Shown: positions 32,910 to 59,970 of the stretch, piece by piece
Layout of the letters: each line of letters opens with the position of its first letter
Position numbering within the stretch: position 1 is the first letter of the stretch
NCBI RefSeq assembly: GCF_024721115.1
Contig: NZ_JAMDHK010000011.1
Location: forward strand, 63,055-127,054
Direction of reading: 5' to 3'
Length of the DNA stretch: 64,000 nt
Source of the DNA: Salipiger pentaromativorans
Lineage (GTDB): Bacteria > Pseudomonadota > Alphaproteobacteria > Rhodobacterales > Rhodobacteraceae
Notes under the pieces: generated by a model
What the model was told of the DNA's origin: nothing
What the model saw: only the letters and a program-made list of their open reading frames with translations
Database searches by the model: none
Made by a program: the position numbers and the translations under genes

Positions 32910-32914
32910 TATTT

Positions 32915-32928
32915 TTGATCCAGATCAA
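32915..32928 (+). promoter_or_regulatory. FNR/FnrL box of cydAB
   Basis: TTGAT-CCAG-ATCAA is a perfect match to the FNR-family consensus TTGAT-N4-ATCAA, 164 nt before the cydA ATG. If it activates as a class II site (-41.5) the start site would be near 32963, with GTAGCA at 32951-32956 as a weak -10. The same 17 bases (TTTTTGATCCAGATCAA) recur at 58233-58249. Confidence 0.88.
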
Positions 32929-33091: not shown

Positions 33092-34732
33092 ATGGAGCTC
33101 GATCTCGTCGAGCTGTCGCGCCTGCAATTTGCGATGACGGCGATGTATCACTTCCTCTTCGTGCCGCTGACGCTGGGTCTGTCGATCCTCGTGGCGATCA
33201 TGGAGACGGTCTATGTGATGTCGAACCGCCCGATCTGGCGGCAGATGACGAAGTTCTGGGGTACGCTGTTCGGCATCAACTTTGTGCTGGGCGTCGCAAC
33301 AGGCATCACCATGGAATTCCAGTTCGGCATGAACTGGAGCTACTACAGCCACTATGTCGGCGACATTTTCGGCGCGCCGCTTGCGGTCGAGGGGCTGATG
33401 GCCTTCTTCCTCGAGGCGACCTTTGTGGGGCTGTTCTTCTTCGGCTGGGACAAGCTGTCGAAGGTGGCGCATATGATCGTCGCCTGGCTGGTCGCCATCG
33501 GGTCGAACTTCTCGGCGCTGTGGATCCTGATCGCCAACGGCTGGATGCAGAACCCGGTGGGCGCCGAGTTCAACCCCGACACCATGCGGATGGAGATGAC
33601 CTCGTTCTTCGAGGTGGTGTTCAACGAGGTGGCGCAGGCGAAATTCGTGCATACCGTGTCCGCCGGCTACGTGACCGCCTCGGTCTTCGTGCTGGGCGTT
33701 TCGGCCTGGTACATGCTGAAGGGCCGCCATATCGAGCTGGCCCGCCGCTCCATCGCGGTGGCCGCGAGCTTCGGTCTTGCCTCGGCGCTGTCGGTTGTGG
33801 TTCTGGGCGATGAGTCCGGCTACTCCGCCTCGCATACCCAGAAGATGAAACTCGCCGCCATCGAGGCGATGTGGGAAACCCATGACGCGCCGGCCCCCTT
33901 CACGCTGGTCGGCTTCCCGGACAAGGAAGCGCGCGAAACCCACTATGCCGTCGAGATCCCCTGGGCGATGGGGCTGATCGGTACGCGATCGCTGACCAAG
34001 GAGATCCCGGGCATCAACGATCTGGTGGAACAGGCCGAGGAGAAGGTGCGCTCGGGGATCATCGCCTATGACGCGCTGATGACCATCCGCGAGCAGCGCG
34101 ACGCAACTCCGGAAGCGGTGCGGCTCTCCTTTGAAGAGCATTCCGCCGATCTGGGCTTTGCCTTCCTGCTGAAACGCTATGTGGACGATCCGCGCGAGGC
34201 GACCGAAGCGCAGATCGCACAGGCCGCCGAGGACACGATCCCCGGTGTGGCACCGCTGTTCTGGGCGTTCCGGATCATGGTGGGGCTGGGCTTCAGCTTC
34301 ATCGCGGTGATGGCCTATTTCTTCTTCATGGCCAATTTCCGCACCATGCAGTTCCCGCGCTGGGCGCTGCGGCTGGCGGTCATCATCATCCCGACGCCCT
34401 GGCTTGCCGCCGAACTGGGCTGGTTCGTGGCCGAGTTCGGCCGTCAGCCCTGGACCGTGGACGGCGTGCTGCCGACGGCGCTCTCGGCCTCGCATCTTTC
34501 GGTGGGCGATCTGCTGATCACGCTGGCGGGCTTTGTCACCTTCTATTCGGTGCTCTTCGTCATCGAGATGAGCCTGATGGTCAAATACATCCGCAAAGGC
34601 CCGTACATGGATGTCGCGGAAACCGACGCGTGGATGGAGCGGCATGAACACCGGCTGCGCACCCACGATGGCAAAGGGCCCTTTGCCGATCCTTCTGATC
34701 CGCGCACCTCTGGTGCGACCCCTGCGGAGTAA
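33092..34732 (+). CDS. cydA: Cytochrome bd ubiquinol oxidase subunit I
   Basis: A 546-aa, nine-helix quinol oxidase subunit carrying hemes b558, b595 and d. The heme b595 ligand corresponds to His20 in AMYHFLFVP; the Q-loop region has KLAAIEAMWET and the diagnostic GRQPW lies near residue 449. The GRQPW motif makes it a true bd subunit; I read the length as the long-Q-loop type, but that assignment is inferred. ATG 33092 is preceded by GGAG in CGAGGAGACT. With CydB and CydX it reduces oxygen at low tension and is known as a family for tolerance to sulfide, cyanide and NO. Expression is probably FNR-controlled. Confidence 0.97.
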   Translation: MELDLVELSRLQFAMTAMYHFLFVPLTLGLSILVAIMETVYVMSNRPIWRQMTKFWGTLFGINFVLGVATGITMEFQFGMNWSYYSHYVGDIFGAPLAVEGLMAFFLEATFVGLFFFGWDKLSKVAHMIVAWLVAIGSNFSALWILIANGWMQNPVGAEFNPDTMRMEMTSFFEVVFNEVAQAKFVHTVSAGYVTASVFVLGVSAWYMLKGRHIELARRSIAVAASFGLASALSVVVLGDESGYSASHTQKMKLAAIEAMWETHDAPAPFTLVGFPDKEARETHYAVEIPWAMGLIGTRSLTKEIPGINDLVEQAEEKVRSGIIAYDALMTIREQRDATPEAVRLSFEEHSADLGFAFLLKRYVDDPREATEAQIAQAAEDTIPGVAPLFWAFRIMVGLGFSFIAVMAYFFFMANFRTMQFPRWALRLAVIIIPTPWLAAELGWFVAEFGRQPWTVDGVLPTALSASHLSVGDLLITLAGFVTFYSVLFVIEMSLMVKYIRKGPYMDVAETDAWMERHEHRLRTHDGKGPFADPSDPRTSGATPAE

Positions 34733-56754: not shown

Positions 56755-58137
56755 ATGCCGCCCATGCAGAATCCCCCCGACCTGCGCCCGGATCTCGCGC
56801 GCGCCCGTATCTCCGAGACGAAACGCGACGGCCAGCCGACCATCGGCATGGTCTCTCTCGGCTGTCCCAAGGCGCTGGTCGACAGCGAGCGCATCCTCAC
56901 AAGGCTGCGCGCCGAGGGCTATGGCATCTCGCCCGATTACAGCGGCGCCGATGCGGTGATCGTCAATACCTGCGGCTTTCTCGACAGCGCCAAGGCGGAA
57001 AGCCTCGAGGCCATCGGCGAGGCGCTGAGCGAGAACGGCAAGGTGATCGTCACCGGCTGTCTGGGCGCCGAGCCCGAATATATCACCGGGGTGCATCCCA
57101 AGGTGCTGGCCGTCACCGGCCCGCATCAATACGAGCAGGTTCTGGACGCGGTGCATGGCGCCGTGCCGCCCTCGCCCGATCCCTTCGTGGATCTGCTGCC
57201 GGCGAGCGGGGTGAGCCTCACGCCGCGGCATTACAGCTATCTGAAGATCTCCGAGGGCTGCAACCACGCCTGCAAGTTCTGCATCATCCCCGACATGCGC
57301 GGCAAGCTCGTCTCGCGGCCCGCGAAGGCGGTGCTGCGCGAGGCGGAAAAGCTGGTCGAGGCGGGGGTGAAGGAGCTGCTGGTGATCAGCCAGGACACCA
57401 GCGCCTATGGCACCGACTGGAGGGACCGTGAGGAGAAATTCCCGATCCTGCCGCTGGTGCGCGATCTGGGCGGGCTCGGCGCCTGGGTGCGGCTGCATTA
57501 CGTCTACCCCTATCCGCATGTGCGCGATCTGGTGCCGATGATGATCGGCGCGGCCGAGGCCGGCGCGGGCAAGGTGCTGCCCTATCTCGACATCCCGTTC
57601 CAGCACGCCCATCCCGACACGCTGCGGCGCATGGCGCGGCCTGCGGCGGCGGCCAGAACGCTGGACGAGATCGCCGCCTGGCGGGACATCTGCCCCGACA
57701 TCGTGCTGCGTTCGACCTTCATCGTCGGCTACCCGGGCGAGACCGAGGCGGAGTTCCAGACCCTGCTCGACTGGATGGACGAGGCGCAGCTCGACCGGGT
57801 GGGCTGCTTTCAATACGAGGATGTGGCGGGGGCGCGGTCGAACGCGCTGCCCGATCATGTGGCGCCCGAGATCAAGCAGGAGCGCTGGGAGCGCTTCATG
57901 GAAAAGGCGCAGGAGATTTCGGAGGCCAAGCTGGCCGCCAAGGTCGGCAGGCGGATCGAGGTCATCGTCGATCTGGTCGAGGAGGATGCCGCCACCTGCC
58001 GGACCATGGCCGATGCGCCCGAGATCGACGGCAACCTCTTCATCGACGAGGGCCACGAGCGGCTGAGCGCCGGCGACATCGTCACCGTCGAGGTGGACGA
58101 GGCCGGGGAATACGACCTTTGGGGGCGGCTGGTCTGA
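56755..58137 (+). CDS. rimO: Ribosomal protein S12 methylthiotransferase RimO
   Basis: A 460-aa radical-SAM enzyme adding a methylthio group to Asp of ribosomal protein S12. The UPF0004 domain has cysteines 37, 73 and 102 (SLGCPKA, VNTCGF, TGCLGA) for one 4Fe-4S cluster; the radical-SAM triplet is CNHACKFC (169, 173, 176) followed by IIPDMRG. The C-terminal TRAM domain ends DLWGRLV. The start is ATG 56755 or 56764. It follows the SARP regulator by 34 nt. A second methylthiotransferase, mtaB, lies at the window end. Confidence 0.96.
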
Positions 58138-58169
58138 CGGACGCTCACGAAAGAGCGATTCGCCGGGAG

Positions 58170-58206
58170 GATTCTTTACCGTAAGGTAAAAATCGCCCAT
58201 TTTTTT
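58170..58206 (+). terminator. Terminator-like inverted repeat after rimO
   Basis: GATT-C-TTTACC (58170-58180) pairs with GGTAAA-AATC (58185-58194) with one bulged C and a 4-nt loop, and seven T residues follow at 58200-58206. It is a plausible rimO terminator; the palindrome TTTACC-gtaa-GGTAAA (58175-58190) could equally be an operator. Confidence 0.6.
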
Positions 58207-58235
58207 GGCGTCACCCCTGTCGATTCTGACAGTTT

Positions 58236-58249
58236 TTGATCCAGATCAA
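58236..58249 (+). promoter_or_regulatory. Second FNR/FnrL box
   Basis: TTGAT-CCAG-ATCAA, a perfect FNR consensus, lies 99 nt after rimO. Seventeen bases including five leading T residues are identical to the cydA box at 32912-32928. The only same-direction unit downstream before the terminator at 58495 is the candidate small RNA. Confidence 0.85.
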
Positions 58250-58328
58250 GTGAAAAAGCTGACGTTGCGTCGCTTTCGCAAAAGTTTGCCTTGGGACAAA
58301 ATCCGCCGATTTGTGCTATGATCGGGAT

Positions 58329-58526
58329 GTTCGGTCGGGTCAGCAGGGATGGACCAATCCGGTCTATTTGATCCGATCGCGTGGAGGGGACAGGGCCATT
58401 TCAGGCGTTGGTGTCACAGCCGCCTTTCCCACCATGCGTCCGTGATTGATCCTTTCGGGGGCAAGTGGTTTTGTATTTCTTTTCAGAGCGCTAGGAATGC
58501 TCCCGCATGTCGGGAGCATTCTTTTT
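58329..58526 (+). ncRNA. Candidate FNR-controlled small RNA
   Basis: The evidence is positional: a perfect FNR box upstream, an extended -10 (TG-C-TATGAT, 58314-58322), about 200 bp without a credible gene, and a perfect intrinsic terminator of matching polarity. The start is estimated at about 7 nt after the -10; if the box acts at -41.5 the start would be nearer 58284. An ATG at 58349 opens a frame, but it runs through the terminator and lacks a ribosome binding site; shorter frames have 3-14 codons. The upstream rimO gene has its own terminator-like structure, so this is unlikely to be its 3' end. No known RNA family is recognised. Confidence 0.5.
58495..58526 (+). terminator. Perfect intrinsic terminator of the candidate small RNA
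   Basis: GAATGCTCCCG (58495-58505) pairs with CGGGAGCATTC (58511-58521), an 11-bp perfect stem with a 5-nt loop followed by TTTTT. The T-run is on the plus strand only; on the minus strand the stem is followed by CTAGCGCT, so it does not serve the convergent luxR-type gene ending at 58572. Confidence 0.92.
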
Positions 58527-58571
58527 GGGGGGGCGCTCCGATGGGGCGCAGCCATTGGCGGACGGGCGCGG

Positions 58572-59456
58572 CTACAGCACCACCGTGGGGCGCAGCACGG
58601 CGCCGCCTTCGTCCATCTCGACCAGGATCTGTGCCTCGGCGTCTCCGGGGCGGTTCAGCGGATCGGGCAGCACCCCCAGCGACATGGCCAGGGCCGCGAG
58701 CTCGGCGCGCGAGGTCATTCCGGTGTTCTGCGACAGGGCGCTCAGCCGCTGGCGCACCGCCGAGACCGAGACCCGCAGCCGGTCGGCGATCTGCTTGTCC
58801 TGTAGCCCCGCGCCGATCAGTTCGAGCAGTTCGAGCTGCTTGGGGGTGATGCGGTTGCGTTCGGGGAATTCGCGGCCGAAGTGATACATGTAGCGCTGAA
58901 AGCCGGTCAGCGCGGCGGTGGTCAGCGTCCAGCCATGGGCGTTGATGATGGTCAGCATGTCGCGGCGCGAGTGATCGCCGCCGAAGGTGATCAGTGCGGC
59001 CTGCGGCGGGGCGTTGTAGCGCAGCGGTACGGAATAGCCAGCCCGCATCCCGCGCCGCGCCGCATCCCGCAGCACCTCGACCCGGGCCTCGGGCAGCGGC
59101 TTGTATTCGTCGAGAAACTCGAGCCCCACCGCGATGGGGGTGAGGTGATCCATCGCGTGGCTGCGGAAATAGGACCAGCGCGCCAGCTCGGGGTCGCTGT
59201 TATGCGCGCTGAGCCAGGAGGCATCGTAGGAGGTGCGGATGAAGCGGGTCTTCTTCCAGTCGCGCCAGGAGCTTGCGGAAATGAGATCGACGAAGGGAAG
59301 CTGCAATTCGCGCCCGAGGGCCACGATCAGACGCCATACCTCGAGTGAGCTCTCCGCCGTTTCCAGCCTGAGCAGGAAGCGCTGGAGGAGGTCGGGAACG
59401 TGACGCTCTGCCGCGCAGGTTTCGCGGCTCGGAGGCGTGGCATCAGGCAGTTTCAT
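58572..59456 (-). CDS. LuxR-family regulator with autoinducer-binding-like domain
   Basis: A 294-aa regulator. The N-terminal region (about 30-190) resembles the autoinducer-binding fold (LELPFVDLISASSW-like, SYDASWLSAHNSDPELARWSYF, GYSVPLRYNAPPQAALITFGG). The C-terminal GerE-type helix-turn-helix reads ITPKQLELLELIGAGLQDKQIADRLRVSVSAVRQRLSAL, near 215-255. No LuxI synthase gene is nearby, so this is a LuxR solo; whether it binds a homoserine lactone is unknown. Its start overlaps the stop of the CII-like gene by 14 nt, which implies coupled expression. Confidence 0.87.
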   Translation of the reverse strand: MKLPDATPPSRETCAAERHVPDLLQRFLLRLETAESSLEVWRLIVALGRELQLPFVDLISASSWRDWKKTRFIRTSYDASWLSAHNSDPELARWSYFRSHAMDHLTPIAVGLEFLDEYKPLPEARVEVLRDAARRGMRAGYSVPLRYNAPPQAALITFGGDHSRRDMLTIINAHGWTLTTAALTGFQRYMYHFGREFPERNRITPKQLELLELIGAGLQDKQIADRLRVSVSAVRQRLSALSQNTGMTSRAELAALAMSLGVLPDPLNRPGDAEAQILVEMDEGGAVLRPTVVL

Positions 59457-59970
59457 CCTCCAGATGCAGTTTCATGTCGATCAGCACTTTCTGAATGGCG
59501 AGGGTTTCCTTCAGCAGACGCCGGGCCTCGTTGGCCGAAATCACGCCATCCTCGATCGACTGGTGATATTCCGCCATCAGCATGGCAAAACGCTGGCTAA
59601 GCACGACCACATCGCTGTTGATGCCGCCGCCTTCGCGCGGCGCGTTCCGGCGCTCGCTGTCGTAATGCAGCGCGATCCCCTTCAGCTCGGCCAGGGCCGA
59701 GGTGACATGCGGATAGGAGGCGGCCTCTTCGAGCGCGGCAACGGCGTCGATCGGCATGAAGCGGTCCTCATGCTCGGGGTAGTCGGAGTAATACCGCCCC
59801 AGCGTCGCCTTGGACTTCCCTGTGAGTTTGCACGCCGGTTCGATGCCGACATCCTTCACAAGGGCTTCGGTGTGTTTCTTGAGATAACGTCCGACACTCG
59901 ACATCTGCAAAGCTCTCAGCCCCTTCTGCCCCACCGTAACCGTTGGGGAACTCTCAATATCATTTCCCAT
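59443..59970 (-). CDS. CII-like DNA-binding protein, function unknown
   Basis: A 175-aa protein. Residues about 38-85 contain a helix-turn-helix-like stretch (IEPACKLTGKSKATLGRYY) followed by RFMPIDAVAALEEAASYPHVTSALAELKG, a pattern resembling phage regulatory CII-type proteins kept in alphaproteobacterial chromosomes. The C-terminal half (SQRFAMLMAEYHQSIEDGVISANEARRLLKETLAIQKVLI) is helical and could oligomerise. No phage genes surround it. The start is ATG 59970, or ATG 59904 (MSSVGRYLKK). It is transcribed with the LuxR-type gene. Confidence 0.65.
   Translation of the reverse strand: MGNDIESSPTVTVGQKGLRALQMSSVGRYLKKHTEALVKDVGIEPACKLTGKSKATLGRYYSDYPEHEDRFMPIDAVAALEEAASYPHVTSALAELKGIALHYDSERRNAPREGGGINSDVVVLSQRFAMLMAEYHQSIEDGVISANEARRLLKETLAIQKVLIDMKLHLEDETA

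Follow-up and report, generated by a model that had tools for sequence, protein, structure and literature searches.

In enterobacteria, the small RNA (sRNA) FnrS is preceded by an FNR box and ends at its own terminator, and Rfam includes a model of it. The Qrr sRNAs of Vibrio are tied to quorum sensing and are driven by LuxO and sigma-54, not from a lux-type box. LuxR-type activators usually act from a box near -42, and the usual lux promoter differs from a layout with the box about 105 bp upstream.

According to the excerpted text of PMC4263372, which names FnrS, the alphaproteobacterial sRNAs RSs0019 and RSs2461 of R. sphaeroides have FnrL ChIP sites in their putative promoter regions; we liken them to the present locus by description only. 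The excerpted text of PMC11949849 describes Lrs1 of P. aeruginosa, an sRNA whose promoter depends on the LuxR-type regulator RhlR and has a box upstream. The locus described here likewise has an sRNA under a LuxR-type regulator with an upstream box, although the dependence is predicted. Lrs1 was found by BLASTN in P. aeruginosa only, lies in the pqsA promoter, and belongs to canonical acyl-homoserine lactone (AHL) systems, whereas here the regulator is a solo LuxR, the neighboring gene is convergent, and the arrangement extends over several genera.

The closest described relative of the regulator is LuxR solo group 5, presented in the excerpted text of Subramoni et al. 2015 (PMC4338825) as unknown LuxR solos in the order tk-luxR-rimO, occurring in Salipiger and Roseivivax at 60-62% and carrying the changes Y61E/H, D70W, P71S, W85L/V/I, and E178Q. 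That text gives neither target nor box for the group, and the main text makes no mention of small RNA, sRNA, non-coding, or intergenic; here, a candidate sRNA and a box can be named. PMC10134790 makes no mention of rimO, sRNA, or Salipiger, and a literature search over titles and abstract openings of open-licence papers returned, among the matches listed, no sRNA beside this luxR.

The window, the whole stretch of 64,000 nucleotides that was analyzed, is part of contig C2 of the genome (G000) of the marine bacterium Salipiger pentaromativorans, and “congeners” refers to the genus Salipiger. Its features are as follows.

56767..58137, plus strand: rimO, ribosomal protein S12 methylthiotransferase, the upstream neighbor (Pfam Radical_SAM, UPF0004, and TRAM_2)
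58215..58234, no strand assigned: lux-type box CCCTGTCGATTCTGACAGTT, proposed LuxR site, centered at -104.5 from the inferred start (comparison and blind scan)
58236..58249, no strand assigned: perfect FNR-type box TTGATCCAGATCAA, centered at -86.5 from the inferred start (sequence)
58293..58298, plus strand: weak -35-like hexamer GGGACA, 18-bp spacer to the -10 (promoter scan)
58314..58322, plus strand: extended -10 TGCTATGAT (TG-N-TATGAT; sequence, also listed by the promoter scan)
58329..58526, plus strand: proposed small RNA from an inferred start, about 198 nt long (fold, consensus structure, and model R1)
58495..58526, plus strand: Rho-independent terminator (stem 58495-58505 / 58511-58521, 5-nt loop, T58522-58526)
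58572..59456, minus strand: LuxR-type solo regulator gene, convergent to the sRNA
59443..59970, minus strand: orf175, a 175-aa protein before luxR and overlapping its start (without a Pfam match)

Because rimO and luxR converge, neither needs a promoter in the region between them. The LuxR protein has autoinducer-binding and GerE domains, and no luxI lies beside its gene; the genome holds a single PF00765 (luxI) match, on contig C34. The order tk-luxR-rimO is present, with the 175-aa gene here between luxR and tdk. All 25 orthologues have Q at the place of E178 and T at that of D70, the places being aligned via the genome's own C34 LuxR, with TraR itself left out of the alignment. Gene context, E178Q, and changed ligand-pocket positions are thus shared with group 5 as described in the excerpted text of PMC4338825, although among the listed residue changes only E178Q agrees letter for letter; by these features, the regulator fits that group. 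We rejected a canonical LuxR with a partner luxI, since the invariant D70 and E178 are changed and no luxI is adjacent. The predicted structure has the fold of a quorum-sensing LuxR, and a phmmer search against PDB sequences matched DNA-binding domains and nothing else. In the model, the DNA-binding domain is followed by a two-strand extension (residues from about 275 to 291) that the PDB matches do not span. Elsewhere in the genome, contig C34 carries a luxR-luxI pair (locus L153), and on contig C22 (L154) a further luxR precedes a convergent gene that looks like tsf, an arrangement resembling the published LuxR solo group 1.

The protein encoded by orf175 is a probable operon partner of luxR. 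It is about 70-85% identical in other genera, where it lies beside luxR or tdk, and has a sub-cutoff YmfL-like match (22 bits versus 90). No consistent box precedes the orf175-luxR operon in the window and 16 other loci, the best matches having 2 mismatches (L128 and L140).

An earlier note on this DNA had proposed an independent sRNA, and the sequence confirms the parts that it named: the extended -10 and the perfect 11-bp terminator with five T residues, whose plus-strand polarity is also borne out, the minus strand having no T run behind the hairpin. A U-rich stretch precedes this terminator, which a simple terminator scan did not list; GACAAA occurs at the -35-like place in L008, L009, and L015 as well. 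The RNA at 58329-58526 folds more stably than 200 of 200 shuffles (z = -4.0). As the note had held, the region contains no credible gene: the longest frames differ among copies and the nearest aligned copies differ by single-base gaps, so a coding reading was rejected, and no reading frame is conserved among the sRNA copies. In Rfam, nothing in the window reached the gathering score; relaxed limits gave only sub-threshold matches, and the six found at 58130-58600 with E up to 10 did not include FnrS.

A rimO homologue is present in all 20 genomes of the genus searched, and reading of the DNA downstream found a -10-like element and a terminator in 17 of them, in counterparts that have diverged. 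The remaining three (G007, G012, and G013) have other sequence behind rimO and no match to model R1 at E up to 1. With starts assigned by eye, and L010 doubtful, the -10 hexamer begins with TA in 16/17 loci; the terminator stem keeps an ATGC core in 17/17 and ATGCTCC in 12/17. With an E limit of 0.001, plain DNA similarity searching reached four other congeners, and matches beyond them were mostly chance. Model R1, built from nine aligned copies, recovered copies behind rimO in seven further genomes (E from 1e-8 to 0.11) and, in a local scan only, the copy of G014. A genome-wide R1 match in G014, located away from rimO, was set aside as probably chance. In other genera, R1 matches are weak and at the expected place (L046, L135, L128, L134, and L049; E from 1e-5 to 0.14 over 171 kb).

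The nine-copy alignment supports five helices with compensatory changes. Both sides had changed in 22 cells versus 9.4 in shuffles, with none of 500 shuffles as high and 4-6 cells when the structure was slid; since the structure was derived from the same nine copies, this test leans towards them. The count of further pair types was ordinary (60/500 shuffles). With counterparts behind rimO in 17 of 20 congeners and compensatory changes in nine copies, the proposal of an sRNA with its own promoter and terminator holds, and the region very probably makes a small regulatory RNA. A C-rich motif (e.g., GTTCCCCAG) is found within the first 60 nt in 10/15 RNAs from other genera (L131, L132, L134, and others) and is a possible pairing seed.

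Directly upstream of the FNR box lies a lux-type dyad, of which the earlier note made no mention. It matches the lux-type consensus, a 20-bp inverted repeat ACCTG-N10-CAGGT, with 2/10 mismatches. When 1 mismatch over 8 fixed positions is allowed, the box is present in all nine luxR-linked Salipiger copies, at -103 to -106 in eight of them and at -115 in L019, versus none of the eight copies without an adjacent luxR at that position (Fisher, 4e-5), luxR absence being judged at the sRNA locus only. Two of these eight have such matches elsewhere, at -125 and -15.

The comparison was extended to the family, where homologues of this luxR occur in 24/295 genomes at E up to 1e-40 and in 26/394, largely the same genomes, at 1e-70. 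The set used comprises 24 loci, nine from Salipiger and fifteen from other genera with a visible noncoding stretch. When these 24 regions were scanned blindly for inverted repeats, CCTGT-N8-ACAGG and ACCTG-N10-CAGGT came out on top, each in 13/24, with a maximum of 7 in shuffles (n = 40). Allowing up to 3/10 mismatches, the box lies at -107 to -103 in 22/24 luxR-linked loci, the others being L147 and L019; 300 shuffles gave a mean of 0.38 and a maximum of 3. In 12/24, a second box (up to 4 mismatches) follows exactly 31 bp downstream, against a shuffle maximum of 1. This second box is confined to other genera (12/15) and is absent from the window and the other Salipiger copies; 31 bp is about three helical turns, so both boxes would lie on the same face of the DNA. 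The starts behind these positions were assigned by eye, and L131 was reassigned after the first pass (unchanged, the counts are 21/24 first and 11 second boxes). When the loci were aligned on their best box, with the starts unused, TANNNT peaked at +93 in 15/24 loci, the mean over offsets being 0.85.

At up to 1 mismatch, 13/24 luxR-linked regions contain a box versus 4/83 rimO-downstream regions without luxR, a comparison of regions of 149-550 nt with regions of 300 nt in which the counted match of L133 lies inside the RNA. The pattern CTGNC-N6-GNCAG has 51 matches in the window at up to 1 mismatch versus 48.2 expected; alone it is no better than chance, and position and co-occurrence therefore carry the argument. 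The window's own 16-mer occurs at three places in its genome at up to 2 mismatches, versus one for the reversed pattern. Together, the comparisons support the lux-type box, which follows the adjacent luxR, and not the FNR box, as the conserved regulatory element of the sRNA.

The preferred reading, which we consider likely, is that the solo LuxR directly controls, and probably activates, the sRNA of about 198 nt, the FNR box being a species-specific extra input. A point against it is position: centers at -104 and -74 are far upstream for a LuxR-type activator.

The alternative advanced by the earlier note, by analogy with FnrS, is that low oxygen induces the RNA through FNR bound at 58236-58249. 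The sequence confirms the perfect box and its 17-bp identity (58233-58249 and 32912-32928) with a second one, which precedes an ORF that starts at 33092 and has a CydA-like N-terminus. These two are the only FNR matches in the window at up to 1 mismatch, where 0.62 would be expected; 13/100 shuffles had two or more. At the sRNA locus itself, dinucleotide shuffling of the 391-nt region produced a perfect box in 20 of 20,000 cases, about 1 in 1000, and the FnrL ChIP sites of RSs0019 and RSs2461 also speak for such an arrangement. The note had conceded that the box, some 87 bp from the start, was not ideally spaced, and its computed center is indeed -86.5, not -41.5.

The case for FNR as the driving logic finds no support in conservation. 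The window's is the only FNR box (up to 1 mismatch) in 17 Salipiger loci, and none stands in the promoters of the 15 other-genus copies, the sole match there (L139) being about 600 nt upstream of the start. The note had looked to close relatives for both box and terminator: the terminator is kept and the box is not, being absent from the two nearest, L008 and L009. L009 reads CAGTTTTTG and then other sequence at the FNR place, so the box looks recently gained. Like FnrS, the window RNA has an FNR box and a terminator, but the box is at -86.5 and not conserved. An FNR-induced sRNA seems doubtful to us; as read from these comparisons, the box is a species-specific gain that may serve as an extra oxygen input. 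Perfect FNR boxes also lie behind rimO in two other Rhodobacterales, L055 (TTGATAGTAATCAA) and L058 (TTGATCTGGATCAA), at 47 and 316 nt.

A different regulator might bind the dyad, such as the C34 LuxR that is paired with luxI. The lux-type boxes of different LuxR proteins are similar, and the genome has both that pair and another luxR. However, four genomes without a PF00765 match keep the box, and it is missing from five that have both luxI and the sRNA; among genomes with the sRNA, the box is present in 5/10 that bear luxI and 4/7 that lack it. Within L153, the 4-kb stretch with luxR and luxI, no match is better than 2 mismatches, a weak argument because the window's own box has as many. By these counts the box tracks the adjacent luxR, not luxI, and we regard another regulator as improbable. 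On the rimO tree, the luxR label needs five changes, three of them forced.

Loci beyond the main set fit to differing degrees. L176 fits: its two boxes, with 1 and 4 mismatches, are spaced by 31 bp, TAGGCT stands where the distance predicts it, and a hairpin resembling a terminator is present. Five luxR loci of other genera (L129, L137, L141, L143, and L177) have no adjacent box and sRNA, and the sequence of L142 ends 61 nt behind luxR. In genome G420, luxR (L177) lies next to a coding neighbor with rimO about 10 kb away, and a 1-mismatch box with TAATAT at the expected distance stands behind rimO (L201). G420 is the only one rescued by checking the rimO side of non-fitting loci: G039, G075, and G175 have only 2-mismatch matches and no TANNNT at the expected distance, and G337 and G021 have no box match. 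No box was found in the non-syntenic relatives L191 and L194, and L178 repeats L034. The luxR genes of L136 (G170) and L142 (G175) contain one in-frame stop each; L136 keeps its boxes and sRNA-like region despite it.

The RNA might instead act mainly in cis, as an antisense to the 3' end of the luxR mRNA. The two are convergent with a gap of 45 nt, the shared hairpin has no T run on the luxR side, and the convergent layout recurs in other genera. Against this, box and -10 persist behind rimO in G420, where luxR is about 10 kb off, and the sRNA is retained at eight Salipiger loci that have no luxR beside it; such feedback is unlikely to be the main role. The place of the RNA behind rimO on the same strand would suit mere processing from the 3' end of rimO, or a hairpin that only terminates rimO, but either is very unlikely given an extended -10 about 180 nt past rimO and at a fixed distance from the conserved box, and conserved internal helices.

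For control by the solo LuxR, the promoter, RNA structure, terminator, and fixed-spacing lux boxes are conserved among the compared sequences, and the association with this luxR recurs with them. We infer from these features transcription of the region, LuxR binding, the direction of control, and action in trans. In this model, a LuxR dimer would bind the lux-type box at -104.5, with a second, weaker box 31 bp downstream on the same DNA face in other genera (12/15 loci). Bound LuxR would regulate, most likely activate, a sigma-70-type promoter with an extended -10, and the structured RNA, ended by its own Rho-independent terminator, would most likely act in trans by base-pairing. In S. pentaromativorans, oxygen may be a further input, through the FNR box gained just after the lux box.

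For many LuxR solos no target is known, and group 5 now gains a specific, testable candidate beside its own gene, one that is a regulatory RNA. The promoter layout, with a box about 105 bp upstream and often a second 31 bp downstream, is itself directly testable. Several genera of the family share the module. It also persists in four Salipiger genomes in which no LuxI-type synthase turned up, and may therefore report signals from other producers. Tentatively, we suggest that a solo LuxR whose ligand pocket is off the AHL pattern could use one dedicated sRNA to report a signal that is non-self or not an AHL. This would be a compact receptor-to-riboregulator module with far-upstream boxes, in most other genera a pair spaced by 31 bp, in which box and regulator would have been lost together more than once and oxygen wired in separately in one species.
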